Source: an uncultured Mucilaginibacter sp.
GTDB lineage: Bacteria; Bacteroidota; Bacteroidia; Sphingobacteriales; Sphingobacteriaceae
DNA length: 52,014 nucleotides
NCBI GenBank assembly: GCA_903927645.1
Contig: CAIYNX010000286.1
Coordinates: forward strand, 1-52,014
Reading direction: 5' to 3'
Shown here: positions 971-31,286 of the stretch, piece after piece
Numbering within the stretch: the first letter of the stretch is position 1
How the letters are laid out: every line of letters begins with the position of its first letter
Notes under the pieces: generated by a model
The model's database searches: none
What the model saw: the letters and a program-made list of their open reading frames with translations, nothing else
Told to the model about the DNA's origin: nothing
Made by a program: the position numbers and the translations under genes

Positions 971-3900
971 ATGGACTATCAGTTTAAAGATATTGAAAAA
1001 AAATGGCAGCGCTTTTGGGCCGACCATCAAACATTTAAAGCAGCCGATAAAACGACCAAACCCAAATATTATGTGCTCGATATGTTCCCCTATCCATCGG
1101 GTGCGGGCTTGCATGTGGGGCATCCGCTTGGGTATATAGCTTCCGATATTTTTTCGCGTTATAAAAGGTTAAAGGGCTTTAATGTATTACACCCTATGGG
1201 CTATGATAGCTTTGGCCTACCAGCCGAGCAATATGCCATACAAACCGGTCAGCACCCTGCTATTACTACCGAGGCGAATATTGCCACCTATCGCCGTCAG
1301 CTCGACCAAATTGGCTTTTCCTTTGATTGGAGCAGGGAGGTGCGTACCAGCTCGCCCGATTATTATAAGTGGACGCAGTGGATTTTTATGCAATTGTTCA
1401 ATTCGTGGTATAATAAAGATGCTGATAAAGCGGAACCTATTAGCCAGTTGGTTGCCCATTTCGAAAAAAATGGTTCGGCTGGTATCAATGCCGTTTGCGA
1501 TGAGGAGATTTTAAGCTTTACCGCGGATGAATGGAAGGCAAAAAGCACTAACGAGCAATTGGCCGAATTGTTGAAATACCGTTTAACCTATCTGCGCGAA
1601 AGTACCGTAAATTGGTGCCCTGCCTTGGGTACAGTTTTAGCTAACGACGAAGTAAAGGATGGCTTTAGCGAGCGTGGAGGTTTCCCGGTGGAGCAGAAAA
1701 AGATGATGCAATGGAGCATGCGCATTACCGCCTATGCCGACCGCCTTTTAAAAGGTTTAGATACCATTGACTGGCCCGAGCCACTTAAAGAAATGCAACG
1801 CAACTGGATTGGTAAAAGCGTTGGAGCGTTGGTAAAGTTTAAGGTTAGTCCGCTTGAAAATGGAATTGGACAAGATGAGGTGATAGAAGTATTTACGACT
1901 CGTGCCGATACTATTTTTGGTACCACTTTTTTGGTGATTGCTCCGGAGCATGAACTGGTATCAACTTTAACCACAGCCGAGCAAAAGGCAGCTATTGAAG
2001 CCTATATCGCGCAAGCAAAAAAGAAATCGGAACTGGAGCGTATGGCCGATGCCAAAACGGTTTCGGGTGCCTTTACCGGCAGTTATGCCATTAACCCGGT
2101 AAATGGTGAGAAAGTACAGGTTTGGATAGCCGATTACGTTTTGGCAGGCTATGGAACAGGCGCGGTAATGGCCGTACCATCAGGCGATCAACGAGATTAT
2201 TTGTTTGCCAAACAATTCAATTTGCCTATCATCCCGATTATAGATATACAAAAGATTGATAACGAGGCCGACCCAACCAAGGAAGGACATTATATAAATT
2301 CGGGTTTTATAAACGGATTAACTTATAAGGAAGCCACTGCGGCGGTAATTGCCAAACTGGAAGAATTAGGAGCGGGTAAAGCCAAGGTAAACTTCAGGAT
2401 GCGGGATGCCATTTTTGGCCGTCAGCGTTATTGGGGAGAGCCGGTACCCGTATATTTTAAGGATGGTTTGCCTCATTTAATTAAAGAAAGCGAATTGCCT
2501 TTATTGTTACCTGAGGTTGATAAATACCTACCTACCGAAAGTGGCGAACCACCATTGGCACGAGCCGAGGGATGGAAGTATGAGGGAGCAAGGAATAATT
2601 CCATAGGTAATAAATCTGCAAAGCATGCTGGTGAGGAAGCTTCAAACGAGGCACATTTAACAGGTGCCTATAGGGAGACCGCTGACCCACGATATTACGA
2701 ATTATTGAAAAAATTTAGTTTGGAGAATAGAAAGAACCCAACTGAAGCTGAAAATATTTTGTGGCAACTATTAAGAAAAGACCAAACTGGCTTTAAAATT
2801 AGGAGACAACATGCAATAGGCTTATATATTGCAGATTTTGTTTGTTTACAAAAAGGGCTTGTTATTGAATTAGACGGAAATCATCATAAACTTAATAAAG
2901 AGGCTGACGATGAACGCACAGAGGCATTAAATTATTTTGGTTTTGATGTCATTCGCATTACCAATGAAGAAGTGCTATCAAATGCAAATGATGTTTTTGA
3001 AAAAATCAAAGAGAAACTTGCTATATTAGAAGATAGGGAGTTAAGCCCCACCCAACCCTCCCCGGTAGGGAGGGCTTTAAAAAAAGTCTCCCCTACCGGG
3101 GGAGATTTAGAGGGGGCTATATACGATTACGAACTTTCCACCATGCCGGGTTGGGCAGGCTCCAGTTGGTATTGGTACCGCTATATGGATGCCCAAAACC
3201 AAAATGAATTCGCATCGAAAGAGGCAATTGAGTATTGGAAAGATGTTGATTTGTACATAGGTGGTAGCGAACATGCCACCGGGCATTTATTGTATAGCCG
3301 TTTTTGGAACAAGTTTTTAAAAGACCTTGGTTTAGTGGTTGAAGAGGAACCATTTAAAAAGTTGATTAACCAGGGGATGATTCAAGGTGTTTCCCAAAAG
3401 ATACACATTTCAACTGCTGGGAAGTCGAACATGAATTTAATAGATGGTTTACCTGTTCATACACAAAATACCGAAACCTTCTTAATGAGTTCTGACAGAC
3501 GAGCGGAAATGGACTCAAATGAAAGTAACGCAACAAAAATACTTTACAACACCACTGAACATAATGTTGATATAAGGTTTGTAGACTCAAAAACAAACGA
3601 GTTGAATATTCGAGAATATATAAAATGGCGTCCAGAATACGAAAACTCAATATTTTGGTGTTCAGGAGGATATTGGCATAAAAACGAGTTTCATGAGTTT
3701 GAAAATTCAAATGGAGAAAAACGTTTTTTCACAAAACCAGAAGTCGAAAAAATGTCGAAATCAAAATTCAATGTGGTAAACCCCGATGATTTGATTGAGC
3801 GTTACGGTGCCGATACTTTGCGCATGTACGAGATGTTTTTAGGTCCGCTAGAACAAAGCAAACCTTGGAACACCAATGGCATTGAAGGGGTATTTAAATT

Positions 3901-4435
3901 TTTGCGTAAGTTTTGGCGTTTGTTTCATGATGATGCCTGGAATTTTAATGTATCAACAGCTGAGCCAACAAAAGCGGAATTAAAATCGCTCCATAAAATT
4001 ATACGCAAGGTAGAGGAAGACATTGAGCGTTTCTCGTTCAATACTTCAGTATCCAGCTTTATGATTGCCATCAATGAACTGACAGATTTAAAATGCAATA
4101 AAAAAAGCATCCTGCAAGATTTGGTAATTATCTTATCCCCTTATGCGCCGCATATTTGTGAGGAGCTTTGGGTGATGCTAGGTAACGATGCCGGGACATT
4201 ATCATATGCGCCCTACCCTAAATTCAATCCGCAATATCTAATTGAGGATGAATATGCTTATCCAATTTCTATCAACGGTAAAACAAAAATGAATTTGAAT
4301 ATTTCTTTAAGTTTAGAGCCTAAGGAGATTGAAGCCGCAGTAATGGCTAACGCCGATGTAAATAAATATTTGGATGGCAAAACGCCTAAAAAGGTAATTG
4401 TAGTAAAAGGCAGAATTGTAAATATTGTGGCCTAA
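971..4435 (+). CDS. leuS: Leucyl-tRNA synthetase with an internal DUF559 endonuclease-like insert
   Basis: 1154 aa; YPSGAGLHVGHPLGY (HIGH region), editing domain, MPGWAGSSWYWYRYMD, EKMSKSKFN (KMSKS), C-terminal anticodon-binding region. Residues 538-713 are foreign to LeuRS. Confidence 0.97.
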   Translation: MDYQFKDIEKKWQRFWADHQTFKAADKTTKPKYYVLDMFPYPSGAGLHVGHPLGYIASDIFSRYKRLKGFNVLHPMGYDSFGLPAEQYAIQTGQHPAITTEANIATYRRQLDQIGFSFDWSREVRTSSPDYYKWTQWIFMQLFNSWYNKDADKAEPISQLVAHFEKNGSAGINAVCDEEILSFTADEWKAKSTNEQLAELLKYRLTYLRESTVNWCPALGTVLANDEVKDGFSERGGFPVEQKKMMQWSMRITAYADRLLKGLDTIDWPEPLKEMQRNWIGKSVGALVKFKVSPLENGIGQDEVIEVFTTRADTIFGTTFLVIAPEHELVSTLTTAEQKAAIEAYIAQAKKKSELERMADAKTVSGAFTGSYAINPVNGEKVQVWIADYVLAGYGTGAVMAVPSGDQRDYLFAKQFNLPIIPIIDIQKIDNEADPTKEGHYINSGFINGLTYKEATAAVIAKLEELGAGKAKVNFRMRDAIFGRQRYWGEPVPVYFKDGLPHLIKESELPLLLPEVDKYLPTESGEPPLARAEGWKYEGARNNSIGNKSAKHAGEEASNEAHLTGAYRETADPRYYELLKKFSLENRKNPTEAENILWQLLRKDQTGFKIRRQHAIGLYIADFVCLQKGLVIELDGNHHKLNKEADDERTEALNYFGFDVIRITNEEVLSNANDVFEKIKEKLAILEDRELSPTQPSPVGRALKKVSPTGGDLEGAIYDYELSTMPGWAGSSWYWYRYMDAQNQNEFASKEAIEYWKDVDLYIGGSEHATGHLLYSRFWNKFLKDLGLVVEEEPFKKLINQGMIQGVSQKIHISTAGKSNMNLIDGLPVHTQNTETFLMSSDRRAEMDSNESNATKILYNTTEHNVDIRFVDSKTNELNIREYIKWRPEYENSIFWCSGGYWHKNEFHEFENSNGEKRFFTKPEVEKMSKSKFNVVNPDDLIERYGADTLRMYEMFLGPLEQSKPWNTNGIEGVFKFLRKFWRLFHDDAWNFNVSTAEPTKAELKSLHKIIRKVEEDIERFSFNTSVSSFMIAINELTDLKCNKKSILQDLVIILSPYAPHICEELWVMLGNDAGTLSYAPYPKFNPQYLIEDEYAYPISINGKTKMNLNISLSLEPKEIEAAVMANADVNKYLDGKTPKKVIVVKGRIVNIVA
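2582..3109 (+). mobile_element. In-frame insert encoding a DUF559 (Vsr-like PD-(D/E)xK) domain within leuS
   Basis: RKNPTEAENILWQLLRKDQTGFKIRRQHAIGLYIADFVCLQKGLVIELDGNHH...DDERTEALNYFGFDVIRITNEEV matches the DUF559 signature. Flanked by GAGGGAGC (2582-2589) and GAGGGGGC (3110-3117). The interval of 528 nt is 176 codons. Confidence 0.85.
3044..3118. repeat. GC-rich palindromic element at the 3' end of the DUF559 insert (AGCCCCACCC...CCCGGTAGGG...CCCTACCGGG...GAGGGGGCT)
   Basis: Perfect 10-bp inverted repeat CCCGGTAGGG(3061-3070)/CCCTACCGGG(3091-3100); termini AGCCCC/GGGGCT are inverted. Layout is similar to repeats 72-312. Confidence 0.85.
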
Positions 4436-4594: not shown

Positions 4595-7102
4595 ATGAGG
4601 CGATTTTATATATTTCTAGCAATTTTATTTAGTACAATTTCGGCAAAAGCTCAATTTGGTGGTGGTGGTTCAAGCATCGTAGGGCGAATTTCGGGCACTA
4701 TCATTGATTCCATTACAAAAAAGCCTGTGGATTATACCTCAGTAGGCTTATACCACAGCGGTGGTAAAAGCCCAATGACAGGCGTATTAACTGATACAAA
4801 GGGTGTTTTTAAATTGGATAACGTGCATCCAGGATCCTATAAAATTATTATCTCTTTTGTTGGTTATCCTCCAAAAACCATAGAAAACATTATAACCACT
4901 GATGCAAAGCCTGATAAAAATTTAGGAATTATTTTATTGCAACCAAGTTCAAAAGCTTTAAAAGAAGTGGTGATTCAAGGTCAAGCAGCTGTAGTTGAAA
5001 ATAAAATTGATAAGTTAGTTTATAATGTAGAAAAGGATTTAACCGCCGCAGGTGGTAACGCAAGTGATGTATTACAAAAAGTACCATTGGTTGCGGTAGA
5101 TTTAAATGGAAATGTGTCTATTAGGGGCGATCAGAATGTGAAGGTATTGATTAACGGTAAACCAACAGGAGCATCATCAGCAAGTTTAGCAGATGTATTA
5201 AAAACCATACCCGCCGATCAAATTAAAAGCATAGAGGTAGTTACCTCCCCATCAGCAAAATATGATGCAGAAGGATCGGCAGGTATTTTAAATATCATCA
5301 CCAAACAAAAAAACATATCAGGTATTAGCGGATCGGTAAGTGGTGGATTTGGTACACGTCAAAATAATGGAAACGCCAATTTCAATTATAATAAAAACAG
5401 ATTCAGTTTATCATTAAACGCTGGTGGAAATCTTACTTGGCCACAAACATCACTTTCTGATTTTTATCAAAATTTTCAAGGGGATACTAGTAAATATATT
5501 CAAAATGTAAACGGCACTACCTTAGTAAAACGTTACGGAACCATTAGTTCTGCAACTGCCAACTATGAGTTCAATGCCTTTAATAGTATTACATCAACTA
5601 TCAGGTATAACAAAGGTGGGTTTAATAATACAGGCAATACCATAACCGAATCTACTTTGACTGATTTACAGAACCCTAAGTATTCCTACGATTATAAATA
5701 TTCAGCAAGTTCAACCGGTCATAATTCATTTGGCGGTTTTGATTGGAGCATGGATTATACCCATAAATTTAAAAAAGAAGGCCATGAAATATCACTCTCC
5801 GGTCAATGGAGCCATAGTGATATCGTAACAGATTATTCAACACTGTATACACCTCAAAGACAAATAAATCAAAAAAATAATATCGATGGTGTAAACAATG
5901 AATACACCATACAACTTGATTACACTTTACCGGTAAGCAAGGTATTAAAAATTGAATTGGGTGGAAAAGAAATTATCAGAAGAATTAATAGTAACTCGGA
6001 TGTATTTGCACCTTATGGTACCAGCGATTTTGTTCCTGATCAATTTAATTCAAGTTTATATAATTACAACCAAGATGTAACAGCCGGATATACAGTATTT
6101 ACTTTTACATTGCCAAAAAGCTATTCAATACTTGCAGGTTCGCGCCTTGAAAATACTGCTATTCATGGCGATCCAAATAGCCCTTCAGAACCAAGTTTAA
6201 TGTCGTTTGATAATAACTATTTAACCTATATTCCAAGCTTAACCTTACAAAAGCAATTATCACCATCGCAAACAATAAAGTTAAGCTACAGCAAAAGGAT
6301 TACCAGACCAAGTTTACAGTTTTTAAATCCGTTTTTAAACAAATCGAACATATTAGCTCAAACAGAAGGTAACCCTAACCTGGCACCCGAAGTTTCACAA
6401 ACAGTTGAATTAAACTACAATACCTTTATAAAATCATCTGTAATTAATACTTCTGTTTATTACAGACATATTGATGGTTTAATTGAAGGGATATTAACAC
6501 CACAAATTGTAAACGGCCAACCGGGTACCATAAGCAATTATTATAATGCAGCAGTAAATGATGTATTAGGTGCAAGCTTTTTTGGCTCAATAAATCCTAT
6601 TAAAATATTAACTATAAGAGGTAGCATCAACGTTTATACCTTTAACCCTACACCTTATGCCCAATTTGTTAAAGACTTTACCAGCACTGGTATTTATGTT
6701 CAATATAATGCCTTTTTAAGTGGATCATTAACCTTAAAAAATGATTTTGTTGCCGAGGCATTTGCGGTCGAAAATTCACCACGCAGAACAATACAAGGTC
6801 CCAGTGCCTCCTTTAGCATTTTAGGTTTTGGCGTTAAAAAGCAATTTGCTAAAAAGAAATATTCATTAGGCATCAATGCTATCGAACCATTTTCTAAATA
6901 CAAAGAATTTAATTCAAATGTTAGTAGCCCCGGCTTTGTGCAAACAAGTACATTTAAATTCCCTTTTCGTTCTGTTGGTTTAACATTTAGCTACAGCTTT
7001 GGTAAAACAACCTTTAGCAATCCAATGGAGAAAAAGAAAGGTGTTAACAATGACGACTTAAAACAAGGCGAATCACAAGGCGGTGCAGCTGGAGGAAATT
7101 AA
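4595..7102 (+). CDS. TonB-dependent-receptor-like outer membrane beta-barrel protein
   Basis: Signal peptide, carboxypeptidase-regulatory-like domain (GRISGTIIDSITKKPVDYTSVGLY), plug-like region and C-terminal barrel. Confidence 0.85.
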   Translation: MRRFYIFLAILFSTISAKAQFGGGGSSIVGRISGTIIDSITKKPVDYTSVGLYHSGGKSPMTGVLTDTKGVFKLDNVHPGSYKIIISFVGYPPKTIENIITTDAKPDKNLGIILLQPSSKALKEVVIQGQAAVVENKIDKLVYNVEKDLTAAGGNASDVLQKVPLVAVDLNGNVSIRGDQNVKVLINGKPTGASSASLADVLKTIPADQIKSIEVVTSPSAKYDAEGSAGILNIITKQKNISGISGSVSGGFGTRQNNGNANFNYNKNRFSLSLNAGGNLTWPQTSLSDFYQNFQGDTSKYIQNVNGTTLVKRYGTISSATANYEFNAFNSITSTIRYNKGGFNNTGNTITESTLTDLQNPKYSYDYKYSASSTGHNSFGGFDWSMDYTHKFKKEGHEISLSGQWSHSDIVTDYSTLYTPQRQINQKNNIDGVNNEYTIQLDYTLPVSKVLKIELGGKEIIRRINSNSDVFAPYGTSDFVPDQFNSSLYNYNQDVTAGYTVFTFTLPKSYSILAGSRLENTAIHGDPNSPSEPSLMSFDNNYLTYIPSLTLQKQLSPSQTIKLSYSKRITRPSLQFLNPFLNKSNILAQTEGNPNLAPEVSQTVELNYNTFIKSSVINTSVYYRHIDGLIEGILTPQIVNGQPGTISNYYNAAVNDVLGASFFGSINPIKILTIRGSINVYTFNPTPYAQFVKDFTSTGIYVQYNAFLSGSLTLKNDFVAEAFAVENSPRRTIQGPSASFSILGFGVKKQFAKKKYSLGINAIEPFSKYKEFNSNVSSPGFVQTSTFKFPFRSVGLTFSYSFGKTTFSNPMEKKKGVNNDDLKQGESQGGAAGGN

Positions 7103-7127
7103 TTTTTTTAGTGAGCGGTTGAATTGG

Positions 7128-7176
7128 GTGAGTGGTGAGTAGTCAATGGTCAATAGTCATTAGTGAGTGGTGATTA
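7128..7176. repeat. Degenerate heptamer array, 7 units (GTGAGTG GTGAGTA GTCAATG GTCAATA GTCATTA GTGAGTG GTGATTA)
   Basis: All seven 7-mers fit GT[GC]A[AGT]T[AG] in perfect register. Confidence 0.92.
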
Positions 7177-7187
7177 ATTAAATTACC

Positions 7188-7227
7188 AAAAAGGTTGATA
7201 GAGATTATATTTCTATCAACCTTTTTT
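7188..7227. terminator. Bidirectional intrinsic terminator between convergent genes
   Basis: 15-bp perfect stem AAAAAGGTTGATAGA (7188-7202)/TCTATCAACCTTTTT (7212-7226). Confidence 0.9.
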
Positions 7228-7268
7228 ATTTGAAAGTCAACCTAATTCAGGCATGGACACCACACCAT

Positions 7269-7322
7269 TCACCACACCCCTCACCCCTCACAACTCACAA
7301 CTCACCATTCACCATTCACCAT
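7269..7322. repeat. Degenerate heptamer array (TCACCCC TCACAAC TCACAAC TCACCAT TCACCAT TCACCAT at 7281-7322, with partial units upstream)
   Basis: Six consecutive in-register 7-mers; reverse-complement sense of the 7128-7176 family. Confidence 0.88.
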
Positions 7323-7330
7323 ATCACTCA

Positions 7331-9133
7331 CTACTCAACCTCAATGCCAATTTGCTTCAACAACAAGGATGCATTAAACGTTTTACAGGCACCTGGCTTT
7401 ATTTTATAGTCAAACAGCATTTCGCCTTGTTTTACCTGTATATCAAAATAGAAGTTTCGGATATAATCGGGATAGCTATTTTCAAGCTCTGCAATTTGCA
7501 AGTCGTGGGTGGCTACCATACCTACACCCTTTTTCTCAATCAAATTCTTAATTACTGCTTTAGAGCCAAGGTATTTATCAACCGAATTGGTTCCGCGCAA
7601 CATTTCGTCAATTAAAAAAAATACTTTTTTATTAGTAGTAACCTCATTCAATAACATTTGCAACCTGTCCAATTCGGCCTTGAAGGTGGAGGTACTTTCG
7701 TTCAAATTATCTTTGATACGCATATAGCTAATAATGGTAATAACAGACACTTTCATTTCTTCTGCACAAACGGGTGCACCACTTAAAGCTAACACCGTGT
7801 TTATACCAACCGTGCGCAAAAACGTGCTTTTACCCGCCATATTTGACCCTGTTATGATGTCAATCTTTCGGGTATTATTTAACTCAAAATCGTTTTTTAT
7901 CCTTTTGGCACTGTTAATTAATGGATGAGCTAGGCCATTAGCAGTGAGGGTATAATCATCGCCTATAACAATCTCAGGTGTGGCCCAATTGGGGTAGTTA
8001 ATTTTTAAACTTGCTAAACTCATTAAAGCCTCAAATTCGGCAATTACATCAAAAGCAGTTTCTAAGCTTTTTTGATTGTTCCGCTTCCAATTCTCGATGG
8101 CTATGATTTGGCGAATATCCCATAAAAAAAACAAGTTCAAAATAAAACCAATAATGATATTTAAATGGTAGTTGAGTTTGTTAATTAATACCGAGAGGGA
8201 CTTAATTTTGTTAGAAGTGCCATCATTTTTCAAAAAATCGACCAAATTTTTGTTATAGAATGAATCCCATGGTTCGCTCTCAATTTTTTGAAATACCAGG
8301 GCATAATTATTTAAGACATCTCCTATTTTGCCTGCAATTAAATCGGCCTTTTTGATATACATTGCCTTCGAAGAAACAAGACCTATATTTATAATCCCAA
8401 CCAAAACAGAAAGACTGCTTATAATTGGAACAAAGTATCCGCCCATAATTAAGGCAGTTAATAAATACGGAGCAATTTTGGCATATAAATCCAACCATTT
8501 TTCGCCGGGTAGGTTTAAGGGAATGTTTAAATATTTAAACAAATTGGGTAATTGATCTTGTTTTTCTTGATTTGCAAATAATAATAAAGCCTGGGTCTCC
8601 GGCTTCCAAGCCTCTTTGTTGGCAATTTCAGCAATAGCAGCTTGTCTCAATAAAATAGCATCCTTTTTGCTAGGTTTATCAAACCAAGAGGCTAATTTAA
8701 GTTTCCCTAATGATGTTGCTGCTCTATTGGTTAATTTATACAAAGAGGCACTTCCAAAAATATCTAAATCGGCGCTATAAAAATGTTTATCGTTATTAAA
8801 CCTACTTCCATCATCATAGAGGTTCGAAATGCTTAAAATACTATCAAATTCGTTTTGGTAAACCTTAACTAAATTTGAAAAGTATAGCTTTTGTTTTTCA
8901 AATTCGCTTTGTTTACTTACCAACCATAAAAATGCTAAAATCAAGATTAAACCCGAAAGGATTAAGAAAGTAAAATCATCCCAACTAATGGCTATTCCAG
9001 TAATAAGGATGATAGCAGCAAAAATTACCAATCGTAATAAGGAATATTTATTGGCCAAGGCCTTATATCTATCAGCCTCGGTTTGTGTTTGGCTTATATT
9101 TTGTTCGTAATTATTTAATATATTTTGATCCAA
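7331..9133 (-). CDS. Membrane-associated MutS-family ATPase
   Basis: Walker A GSNMAGKSTFLR, FFLIDEMLRGTNS, ATHD; hydrophobic segments in the N-terminal half. Confidence 0.9.
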   Translation of the reverse strand: MDQNILNNYEQNISQTQTEADRYKALANKYSLLRLVIFAAIILITGIAISWDDFTFLILSGLILILAFLWLVSKQSEFEKQKLYFSNLVKVYQNEFDSILSISNLYDDGSRFNNDKHFYSADLDIFGSASLYKLTNRAATSLGKLKLASWFDKPSKKDAILLRQAAIAEIANKEAWKPETQALLLFANQEKQDQLPNLFKYLNIPLNLPGEKWLDLYAKIAPYLLTALIMGGYFVPIISSLSVLVGIINIGLVSSKAMYIKKADLIAGKIGDVLNNYALVFQKIESEPWDSFYNKNLVDFLKNDGTSNKIKSLSVLINKLNYHLNIIIGFILNLFFLWDIRQIIAIENWKRNNQKSLETAFDVIAEFEALMSLASLKINYPNWATPEIVIGDDYTLTANGLAHPLINSAKRIKNDFELNNTRKIDIITGSNMAGKSTFLRTVGINTVLALSGAPVCAEEMKVSVITIISYMRIKDNLNESTSTFKAELDRLQMLLNEVTTNKKVFFLIDEMLRGTNSVDKYLGSKAVIKNLIEKKGVGMVATHDLQIAELENSYPDYIRNFYFDIQVKQGEMLFDYKIKPGACKTFNASLLLKQIGIEVE

Positions 9134-12067: not shown

Positions 12068-12108
12068 AAAAAAAAGGTGAAACGTGGAAATAGAGAATGT
12101 TGGAATTG

Positions 12109-12136
12109 GTGAGTGGTGAATGGTGGGCGGTGAATT
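12109..12136. repeat. Heptamer array, 4 units (GTGAGTG GTGAATG GTGGGCG GTGAATT)
   Basis: In-register 7-mers of the GTSANTR type with one diverged unit. Confidence 0.8.
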
Positions 12137-27262: not shown

Positions 27263-27657
27263 ATTTAAGAAGAAGATCAAGAAGGGCTGGTGCAGAGGTA
27301 CATACCTCGGCGATGAACGACATCATGTTTTTTCTTTTGTTGTTCTTTCTGATAGCTTCCACAGTTACCAACCCAAATGTGATAAAGCTATTATTGCCAA
27401 AATCATCTTCGGGTAAATCAGTATCAAAAAAAACAATTGTAGTTTCGGTAACCAAGGATTTAAGGTACTATGTTGACCGCAAAGAGGTAAAATTGGCCGA
27501 TTTATCAAATACCTTGTCTGCCTATAAGTCGCAAGCATCTGCATTAACCATTGTTTTGTATGTTGATAAAACAATTGCCATACAAGATGTAGTAGAAATT
27601 ATGGATATATCGCAAAAATTAAACATCAAATTGGTATTGGCAACAGAGCCTAAGTGA
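27259..27657 (+). CDS. ExbD/TolR family biopolymer transport protein
   Basis: MNDIMFFLLLFFLIAS TM segment near the N-terminus; ATGA overlap with ExbB. Confidence 0.93.
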   Translation: MNLRRRSRRAGAEVHTSAMNDIMFFLLLFFLIASTVTNPNVIKLLLPKSSSGKSVSKKTIVVSVTKDLRYYVDRKEVKLADLSNTLSAYKSQASALTIVLYVDKTIAIQDVVEIMDISQKLNIKLVLATEPK

Positions 27658-27662
27658 GTTGG

Positions 27663-27710
27663 TGAGTAAGTGAGTAAGTGAGTAAGTGAGTAAGTGAGTA
27701 AGTGAGTAAG
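27663..27710. repeat. Perfect octamer tandem repeat (TGAGTAAG)x6
   Basis: Six identical 8-bp units, 6 nt after the exbD stop codon. Confidence 0.98.
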
Positions 27711-27772
27711 ATAAATTATTAAAATTAAATTAATAAAAAAAAAGAACAAATTAGTAACAACAGACCAAAGAG

Positions 27773-27822
27773 TATTGACCACTAACTATTGACCACTGAC
27801 CAAAAGACTATTGACAATTGAC
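27773..27822. repeat. Heptamer array (TATTGAC CACTAAC TATTGAC CACTGAC CAAAAGAC TATTGAC AATTGAC)
   Basis: Seven units, one of them 8 bp; reverse-complement sense of GTSANTR. Confidence 0.88.
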
Positions 27823-27832
27823 ATCTCACCAA

Positions 27833-30263: not shown

Positions 30264-30298
30264 TACTAAGCACTCACTACTAACTATTCACTACTCAT
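30264..30298. repeat. Heptamer array, 5 units (TACTAAG CACTCAC TACTAAC TATTCAC TACTCAT)
   Basis: In-register 7-mers; reverse-complement sense of GTSANTR; 10 bp before the ATG at 30309. Confidence 0.85.
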
Positions 30299-30308
30299 TA
30301 ATTAAAAC

Positions 30309-31286
30309 ATGGCTAAAATAAACTGGGGAATTATAGGTTGCGGCAATGTAACAGAAAAAAAAAGCGGACCGGCATTTAACAAAGTTGCCAATAGTTCGTT
30401 GGTTGCAGTAATGCGTCGTGATGCTGAAAAAGCTGCAGATTATGCACTACGGCATAAAGTTGAAAATTGGTATGGCAGTGCCGATGATTTAATGGCTAAT
30501 AAAAATATCAATGCTATTTATATTGCAACTCCGCCTGCCTCGCATAGCAGTTATGCCATTGCTGCTTTGCAAAATGGTTATAATGTTTATATAGAAAAAC
30601 CAGTTACCAGAAATGCAAAAGAGGCAAGGCAAATTGCAGAAACATTAAAGTTATACCCGCATTTAAAACTTACAGTGGCCCATTACCGAAGGGCTGTACC
30701 CATGTTTTTAAAGGTAAAAGCATTGATGGAAGCGTCAACGATTGGCGATATTAGAACGGTACAAATACGAATGTGGCAAAGCCGTAAACCCAAATTAATA
30801 GCAGAAACAAAGGAAAATTGGCGCTTAAATCCAGAATTATCAGGCGGAGGGTATTTCCACGATCTGGCACCTCATCAGCTTGATTTGATGCTGTTTTATT
30901 TTGGTGAACCTGAAAGTTATCATGGTTTTTCGCTCAATCAAGCTAAATCTTCTCCGGCAGATGACCATGTTTGCGGACAGATCCTGTTTAAAAATAATAT
31001 AGTTGTAAATGGTTCATGGTGTTTCAATGTAGCCGAAAACCAAACCACCGATACTTGCGAAATTATCGGGACTTTAGGTAGCATAACCTTTCCCTTTTTT
31101 GGAAATTATATTCATATTAAAACAGATACTGTTGATGAAACGATAACATTTACCCATCCCGAACACATTCAACAACCTATGATTGAAAAAATAGTAGCCT
31201 ATTTTAACAATGAAGCTGCTAATCCCTGCAGCATTGAAGAAGCCATTGTATTGATGGATATTATGGATGCTTTTACCGGGAAATAA
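30309..31286 (+). CDS. Gfo/Idh/MocA family oxidoreductase
   Basis: INWGIIGCGNVTEKKSGPAF, YIATPPASHSSYAIAALQNGYNVYIEKPV. Confidence 0.95.
   Translation: MAKINWGIIGCGNVTEKKSGPAFNKVANSSLVAVMRRDAEKAADYALRHKVENWYGSADDLMANKNINAIYIATPPASHSSYAIAALQNGYNVYIEKPVTRNAKEARQIAETLKLYPHLKLTVAHYRRAVPMFLKVKALMEASTIGDIRTVQIRMWQSRKPKLIAETKENWRLNPELSGGGYFHDLAPHQLDLMLFYFGEPESYHGFSLNQAKSSPADDHVCGQILFKNNIVVNGSWCFNVAENQTTDTCEIIGTLGSITFPFFGNYIHIKTDTVDETITFTHPEHIQQPMIEKIVAYFNNEAANPCSIEEAIVLMDIMDAFTGK

Follow-up and report, generated by a model that had tools for sequence, protein, structure and literature searches.

To our knowledge, heptamer repeats have long been noted in bacteria with no accepted function, and the locus described here, an intergenic junction in a MAG of the soil-bacterium genus Mucilaginibacter, raises the question of what such an array is and what determines where it survives. 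Seven units, GTGAGTG GTGAGTA GTCAATG GTCAATA GTCATTA GTGAGTG GTGATTA, are present letter for letter at positions 7128-7176 of the plus strand of the window, the whole 52,014-nucleotide stretch of DNA that was analysed. A preliminary description had reported these seven units as an array, and this is borne out: the 49-base pattern GT[CG]A[AGT]T[AG] x7 has one match in the window, with no mismatches, and none in 100 dinucleotide shuffles even when three mismatches are allowed. Degenerate units extend beyond the limits originally given, starting at about 7111. The Tandem Repeats Finder score of the 7128-7176 array is weak (31) because its units are degenerate.

Architecture of the junction

The array lies just downstream of the stop codon of a receptor-like gene (7102) and forms the left arm of an inverted pair (Table 1). 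Both arms of the 7102-7331 gap follow stop codons, and the distal arm is a C-rich run of about 80 bases that is almost G-free. Between the arms lies a terminator-like stem-loop, the A and T tracts of which join the stem; a simple consensus terminator scan reports no terminator there. When compared with shuffled sequences, the RNA folds of the gap have z scores of -7.0 (7100-7345, plus strand) and -6.5 (7090-7333, minus strand), and a search of Rfam with 6900-7500 returned no match at gathering score. At the matching junction of the nearest relative, locus L031, both arms are kept and the stem-loop is conserved.

Table 1. Arrays, genes and structural elements located in the window.
Feature	Position	Strand	Basis or remark
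Outer-membrane beta-barrel / TonB-dependent-receptor-like gene	4595..7102	+	PF14905, PF00593, PF07715
Left arm, GT-strand heptamer array, 7 exact units	7128..7176	+	degenerate flanks ~7111 to 7180
Terminator-like stem-loop with A and T tracts, in loop between arms	7188..7227	.	RNA folds
Inverted partner array, right arm, ~11 units (GTGAATG, GTGAGTT, GTGAGGG...)	7256..7338	-	Tandem Repeats Finder 7263-7337, 11.3 copies
MutS domain V protein gene, convergent with receptor gene	7331..9133	-	PF00488
Stop codon TAG of MutS-domain gene, formed by right array (GTT GAG TAG TGA GTG)	7331..7333	-	
TAGCTAG-like heptamer array, directly after stop codon	9717..9765	+	longer relative at matching L031 site
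Short degenerate array, grammar of 7128-7176	12102..12135	+	array at matching L031 site
Octamer array TAAGTGAG x7.5, after stop codon, left arm of inverted pair	27639..27727	+	
Heptamer array GTCAATA/GTCAGTG, right arm of pair starting 27639	27773..27829	-	
Heptamer array, AC strand on plus, just before start of gene at 30309	30264..30298	-	

Unit grammar and distribution

Fixed and variable positions were assessed from heptamers that lie between two grammar units and were themselves left unconstrained by the pattern. Among these unselected middle units, the information content in every set is 1.7-2.0 bits at positions 1, 4 and 6; at position 2 it is 1.1-2.0 bits, lowest in the host genome, and at positions 3, 5 and 7 it is 0.5-1.5 bits. 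Genome G331, which belongs to another family, departs from the last of these ranges, as only position 7 varies there. The resulting profile (1, 4 and 6 near-invariant, 2 largely constant, 3, 5 and 7 variable) is found in the host genome, in G434 (the genome to which L031 belongs), at the related loci and in genome G020. The division into fixed (1, 2, 4, 6) and variable (3, 5, 7) positions that had been drawn from the seven units alone is thereby seen to recur at other loci and in related genomes. Between the host genome and G434, substitutions number 2/98 and 9/146 at the fixed positions and 17/74 and 25/109 at the variable positions, against a background of 16.5% in other alignable intergenic DNA, a contrast that the alignment of non-orthologous units may inflate. 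This contrast shows that the core persists through selection or homogenisation, between which it does not separate.

With three units and at most two mismatches, the grammar has 13 matches in the window, where 0.06 are expected; further match sites are 7292-7319 (minus), 12102-12129 (plus), 27773-27800 (minus) and 30271-30298 (minus). In the 3.74-Mb genome there are 39 exact three-unit matches, versus five for the backward pattern. Four array sites of the window fall within the region covered by L031, and all four have an array at the matching place. The nearest relatives of the host that bear a name belong to Mucilaginibacter. A genus search of 41 genomes (the host's own, 24 of the same genus and 16 of the same class) revealed four-unit arrays in 14, every one of them within the genus, with per-genome totals well above the backward control; several genomes within the genus have no arrays. 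In a phylum-wide sample, the grammar is present in 44 of 396 genomes and the backward control, which includes TAACTGA-like units, likewise in 44 (counted from the table). A special status of the grammar based on phylum-wide spread was consequently rejected: heptamer arrays are common in Bacteroidota, and GT[CG]A[AGT]T[AG] is not special at the level of the phylum. A query of PLSDB with a GTCATTR array gave no plasmid match, a search in which low-complexity filtering may hide matches.

The preliminary description had further proposed that lag-7 signals be sought in intergenic DNA and set against shuffled sequence. When a local array is taken to require 24 or more matches out of 35 at the lag, the excess is evident in an unbiased sample of the host's own intergenic DNA (4 arrays vs 0.3 in shuffles), in G331 (26 vs 0), in G020 (13 vs 0) and in 68 orthologous loci of 13.8 kb (26 vs 0.1); in the latter set, lag 8 (36) and lag 9 (20) also exceed chance. 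The outcome that the preliminary description had named as refuting, lag-7 signals no more frequent than in shuffled intergenic sequence, was therefore not obtained. In autocorrelation, lags 14 and 21 follow lag 7. The global lag-7 autocorrelation of the host's unbiased sample is modest (z=3.8) and not above lags 4, 8 and 9, local array counts being the better measure.

Several observations concern unit families other than that of the 7128-7176 array. The pair at 27639-27829 combines an octamer left arm (TAAGTGAG x7.5) with a heptamer right arm, so the period can differ between arms; locus L225 retains both arms of this pair with more octamer copies. G331 (loci L187-L206) is packed with mirror-image heptamer arrays of several other families (GATGACG/GATGTTG, CGTGAGA, GTTAGCT) and has a nonamer family, CCTTCGTGT, as well.

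Inverted pairing, polarity and codon content

Inverted pairing is the rule, involving roughly half to two thirds of arrays, which is several times the control. Specifically, when compared with expectations from swapped flanks, an inverted partner within 300 bases accompanies 22 of 45 arrays in the host genome (~9 expected), 58 of 84 in G331 (~10), 32 of 53 in G020 (~6) and 70 of 147 in the orthologous set (~9). Adjacent grammar clusters on opposite strands run from a GT arm to an AC arm in 20 cases and in the reverse order in none and, when all unit families are taken together, the GT-then-AC polarity is seen in 8/8 convergent, 10/10 divergent and 23/27 tandem gaps. Read in gene sense, with gene calls that are heuristic throughout these polarity counts, paired arms after stop codons comprise 76 GT and 15 AC, while those before start codons comprise 37 GT and 85 AC (stop versus start, p=4.6e-15), and single arrays have the same gene-sense polarity as paired arms (p=5e-3). 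Polarity is alike for unrelated unit families of periods 7, 8 and 9. The arms abut genes, at a median distance of -1 base to the stop and +2 bases to the start, and enclose a loop of 31-278 bases whose content varies. Left- and right-arm compositions correlate with rho=0.66 (p=0.002) at position 7 and rho=0.39 (p=0.09) at position 3; tight co-evolution of the two arms was set aside as weak.

The two orientations differ in codon content. After stop codons, 62% of period-7 arrays have stops in three frames in gene sense, versus 20% if reversed, and arrays before start codons contain 0.26 start codons per 10 bases, versus 0.81 if reversed. Before starts, the AC orientation is found in 83/95 arrays whose GT strand has many start codons and in 36/78 of those whose GT strand does not; after stops, the GT orientation is found in 62/71 where the GT strand has three-frame stops and in 18/26 where no more than one frame has them. 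Polarity thus peaks where reversal would introduce start codons or forfeit stops, and before starts it is absent where reversal would bring in no start codons; from this dependence, we infer that translation filters which array orientation survives, with the confound that families with more start and stop codons are also the more skewed. Background gene borders lean slightly toward the polarity of the arrays; on the start side, a simple count gives 31% GT, the same figure as for GT-rich leaders in the background (31%), and polarity rises above background only once the arrays are split by start-codon content. Bacteroidetes have no Shine-Dalgarno sites; structure close to the start affects them strongly, and AUG is avoided in its vicinity (PMC6847099). 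Under such a filter the G/T-rich strand would be kept after stop codons, supplying stops in all three frames, and the A/C-rich strand before start codons, where a strand nearly free of G would hence be nearly free of false start codons. The GT-then-AC polarity and its dependence on start and stop codons would provide a quantitative, testable reason for where heptamer repeats survive.

Variation in array length and units

Two contigs of the MAG, C44 at its end and C79 at its start, overlap by 298 bases and differ by the insertion of one 7-base unit, the kind of step by which unit number differs in bacterial intergenic heptamer repeats; one substitution at variable position 7 and one in the flank are the further differences between them. 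At the junction matching that of the window, L031 falls short by 8 bases in the left arm and by about 34 in the right. Identical unit pairs make up 0.65 of those within an array, versus 0.13 when pooled units are dealt at random, and position 5 alternates with a two-unit rhythm (lag-1 z=-3.4, lag-2 z=+3.8). Change by unit steps, alternation and likeness within arrays are as predicted by multi-unit slippage or by unequal exchange with homogenisation. The preliminary description had argued against slippage on the ground that it would give near-identical units, and these same three observations undercut that argument. Its account of the array, the structured variability and a cyanobacterial analogy hold. 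It mentioned neither the partner array on the opposite strand nor the terminator-like hairpin that the two arms enclose, nor the polarity, nor the families of periods 8 and 9.

For the route of unit change we infer slippage rather than unequal recombination, and we regard it as roughly an even bet that the array is a degenerate heptamer satellite grown by slippage, with arms homogenised individually and orientation filtered by translation. Arrays would grow and shrink by 7-base steps, frequently by two units at once, and each arm would be homogenised separately, the core GT.A.T being retained everywhere. In the convergent 7102-7331 gap, the two arms stand outside a putatively bidirectional, terminator-like hairpin and can pair as one long stem around it. 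Against slippage stand the absence of a neighbour correlation between units at lag 1 and the fact that a position-blind process does not predict identical fixed positions at unrelated loci and between species. The orthologous junctions across the genus offer a system in which the birth, homogenisation and family replacement of arrays could be followed.

Alternative explanations

Pairing itself might be what the arms exist for, in which case they would constitute a functional RNA hairpin that extends a terminator, protects 3' ends or shields convergent neighbours from read-through. The strongly negative z scores of both folds and the retention of both arms in L031 accord with this proposal, as does a survey of the same junction across Mucilaginibacter, where an outer inverted repeat beats all 12 shuffles in 30 of 48 convergent loci and is present in none of nine orthologous loci with a non-convergent neighbour; moreover, the outer repeats at the orthologous junction stem from several unrelated sequence families. 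The frequency of inverted pairs, however, is equal in convergent (11.4%), tandem (12.5%) and divergent (12.3%) gaps, and termination therefore cannot be the general role of the arrays; a terminator-only role was rejected as a general explanation on this ground. In addition, the arms often disagree at position 3, as at L208, where the left arm is all GTG and the right all GTC, a mismatch that breaks pairing once per unit. We judge this explanation somewhat unlikely overall, and the hairpin at the 7102-7331 junction may matter locally even if it is not why the arrays exist in general.

The recurrence of the same fixed positions across loci and species would also be expected if the GT.A.T core were read by a DNA- or RNA-binding protein, with, for example, the A/C arms serving as Rho loading sites or as regulator sites in 5' leaders, a role that has been suggested for TAACTGA. 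The almost G-free, C-rich distal arm fits this idea, and TAACTGA repeats adjoin start codons on the upstream side (PMC4679880). A single specificity would not, however, explain why polarity is equal in unrelated families of periods 7, 8 and 9, and several genomes within the genus manage without arrays; a binding array is improbable.

A further proposal is that the arrays act as a punctuation system at the gene borders of some Bacteroidota, with GT arrays after stops and AC arrays before starts silencing translation from read-through RNA, a role that we consider quite improbable. The arrays on the two sides would be complementary and drawn from interchangeable unit families of period 7-9. The arms would lie on different RNAs in correctly initiated and terminated transcripts, and only read-through RNA would hold both, fold them together and so silence translation of the next gene.

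The mirror-image relationship of the arms, and the presence in relatives of further dispersed inverted repeats (CGTCATTGCGAGGTACGAAG, TTTGTCTGAACTCGAAT) at the corresponding junction, could point to decayed mobile hairpin elements, either REP/BIME-like or the ends of small transposons, whose arms later became repetitive. Beyond the shared grammar, however, the arms are not copies of one another, the length and content of the loop vary, and gene borders, not a target site, mark where the arms start, all of which makes this origin very unlikely. An assembly artefact of a fragmented MAG is scarcely credible: several arrays do lie at contig ends (C5, C26, C44, C79, C148), but the junction with both arms is present in an independent assembly (L031), the grammar occurs in other Mucilaginibacter genomes and the paired architecture is found within a 3.15-Mb contig of G331.

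Comparison with known heptamer repeats

The array is real, above chance and ordinary in kind, as bacterial heptamer repeats are already known; consisting of tandem 7-base units above chance in intergenic DNA, it falls within the broad class of bacterial intergenic heptamers. Cyanobacterial STRRs are similarly tandem degenerate heptamers between genes, and the STRR2 unit, TTGGTCA, is GTCATTG in register. The lineage here is a different one, and the host, a Mucilaginibacter and not a cyanobacterium, places the array outside the STRRs. We know of no mirror-image pairing or gene polarity in cyanobacterial STRRs. Three heptanucleotides in Calothrix are cited in PMC4692102.

The analogy with cyanobacteria made in the preliminary description is sound and can be sharpened, since GTGAGTR is the class II repeat of trnL P6b, NNTGAGT, in another register (PMC4476775). 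These repeats occupy the P6b stem-loop of the trnL group I intron in Nostoc (PMC4476775, PMC3488679), where they pair into a stem that changes length by 7-base steps (PMC4476775). Both systems consist of degenerate heptamers with fixed and variable positions, the two sides of which pair, or here can pair, as a stem, and in both, length changes in 7-base steps and an alternative repeat class can substitute. Unlike P6b, a single site within a self-splicing intron of cyanobacteria, the arrays described here are found in Bacteroidota at numerous intergenic sites flanked by protein genes, and the 7128-7176 array itself lies between protein genes and not in a tRNA-Leu group I intron. Only the GTGAGTR units fit NNTGAGT in the rotated register; GTGAATR and the GTC-type units (GTCAATR, GTCATTA), as well as GTGATTA, do not, and families of periods 8 and 9 are present here.

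TAACTGA direct repeats have been described from Beggiatoaceae, Cyanobacteria and five Bacteroidetes (MacGregor, 2015, PMC4679880). Like the present arrays, they are intergenic heptamers, found among others in Bacteroidetes, that lie near gene borders in an orientation tied to the gene and have one strand with stops in all frames. They are described mainly as forward arrays before starts, the type genome having just one indirect repeat, whereas mirror-image pairs are the rule here; the array at 7128-7176 is not a TAACTGA repeat, its unit being GT[CG]A[AGT]T[AG] and the copy following a stop rather than preceding a start. GGGNATC heptamer repeats are known from Xanthomonas and Nostoc (PMC4692102) and share with these arrays a genome-wide intergenic distribution, a variable unit number and closeness to gene ends. 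Their GGG runs form G-quadruplexes, whereas no unit here has GGG. A GTGATTA repeat in Helicobacter pylori, likewise cited in PMC4692102, fits the GT[GC]A[AGT]T[AG] grammar. In the open-access literature searched, no account was found of mirror-image pairs whose polarity is fixed, nor of the period-8 and period-9 families, and the combination of mirror-image pairing with strict gene orientation appears to be undescribed.

Additional observations

At the junction that follows the MutS-domain gene in other Mucilaginibacter (L034, L052, L051 and L045), unrelated inverted repeats are present (AAGAATCAAG, ATGTGCAG, TTTGTCTGAACTCGAAT and CGTCATTGCGAGGTACGAAG). Elsewhere in the MAG, loci L174 and L175 (contigs C180 and C5) have in common a 524-base stretch (94% identity) that ends in an array, which suggests a strain mixture or a duplicated locus.

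Within the leucyl-tRNA synthetase gene of the window (971-4435), about 520 bases are inserted in frame; they encode a DUF559 (PF04480) endonuclease-like domain at residues 581-683. This is the only DUF559 in the host genome, and the gene in the nearest relative, L031, is without the insertion. Upstream of leuS, at 72-363, lie tandem 79- and 111-base repeats with CCTCACCCCC(A)GCCCTCTCC...GGGAGAGAGGGAGC palindromes.
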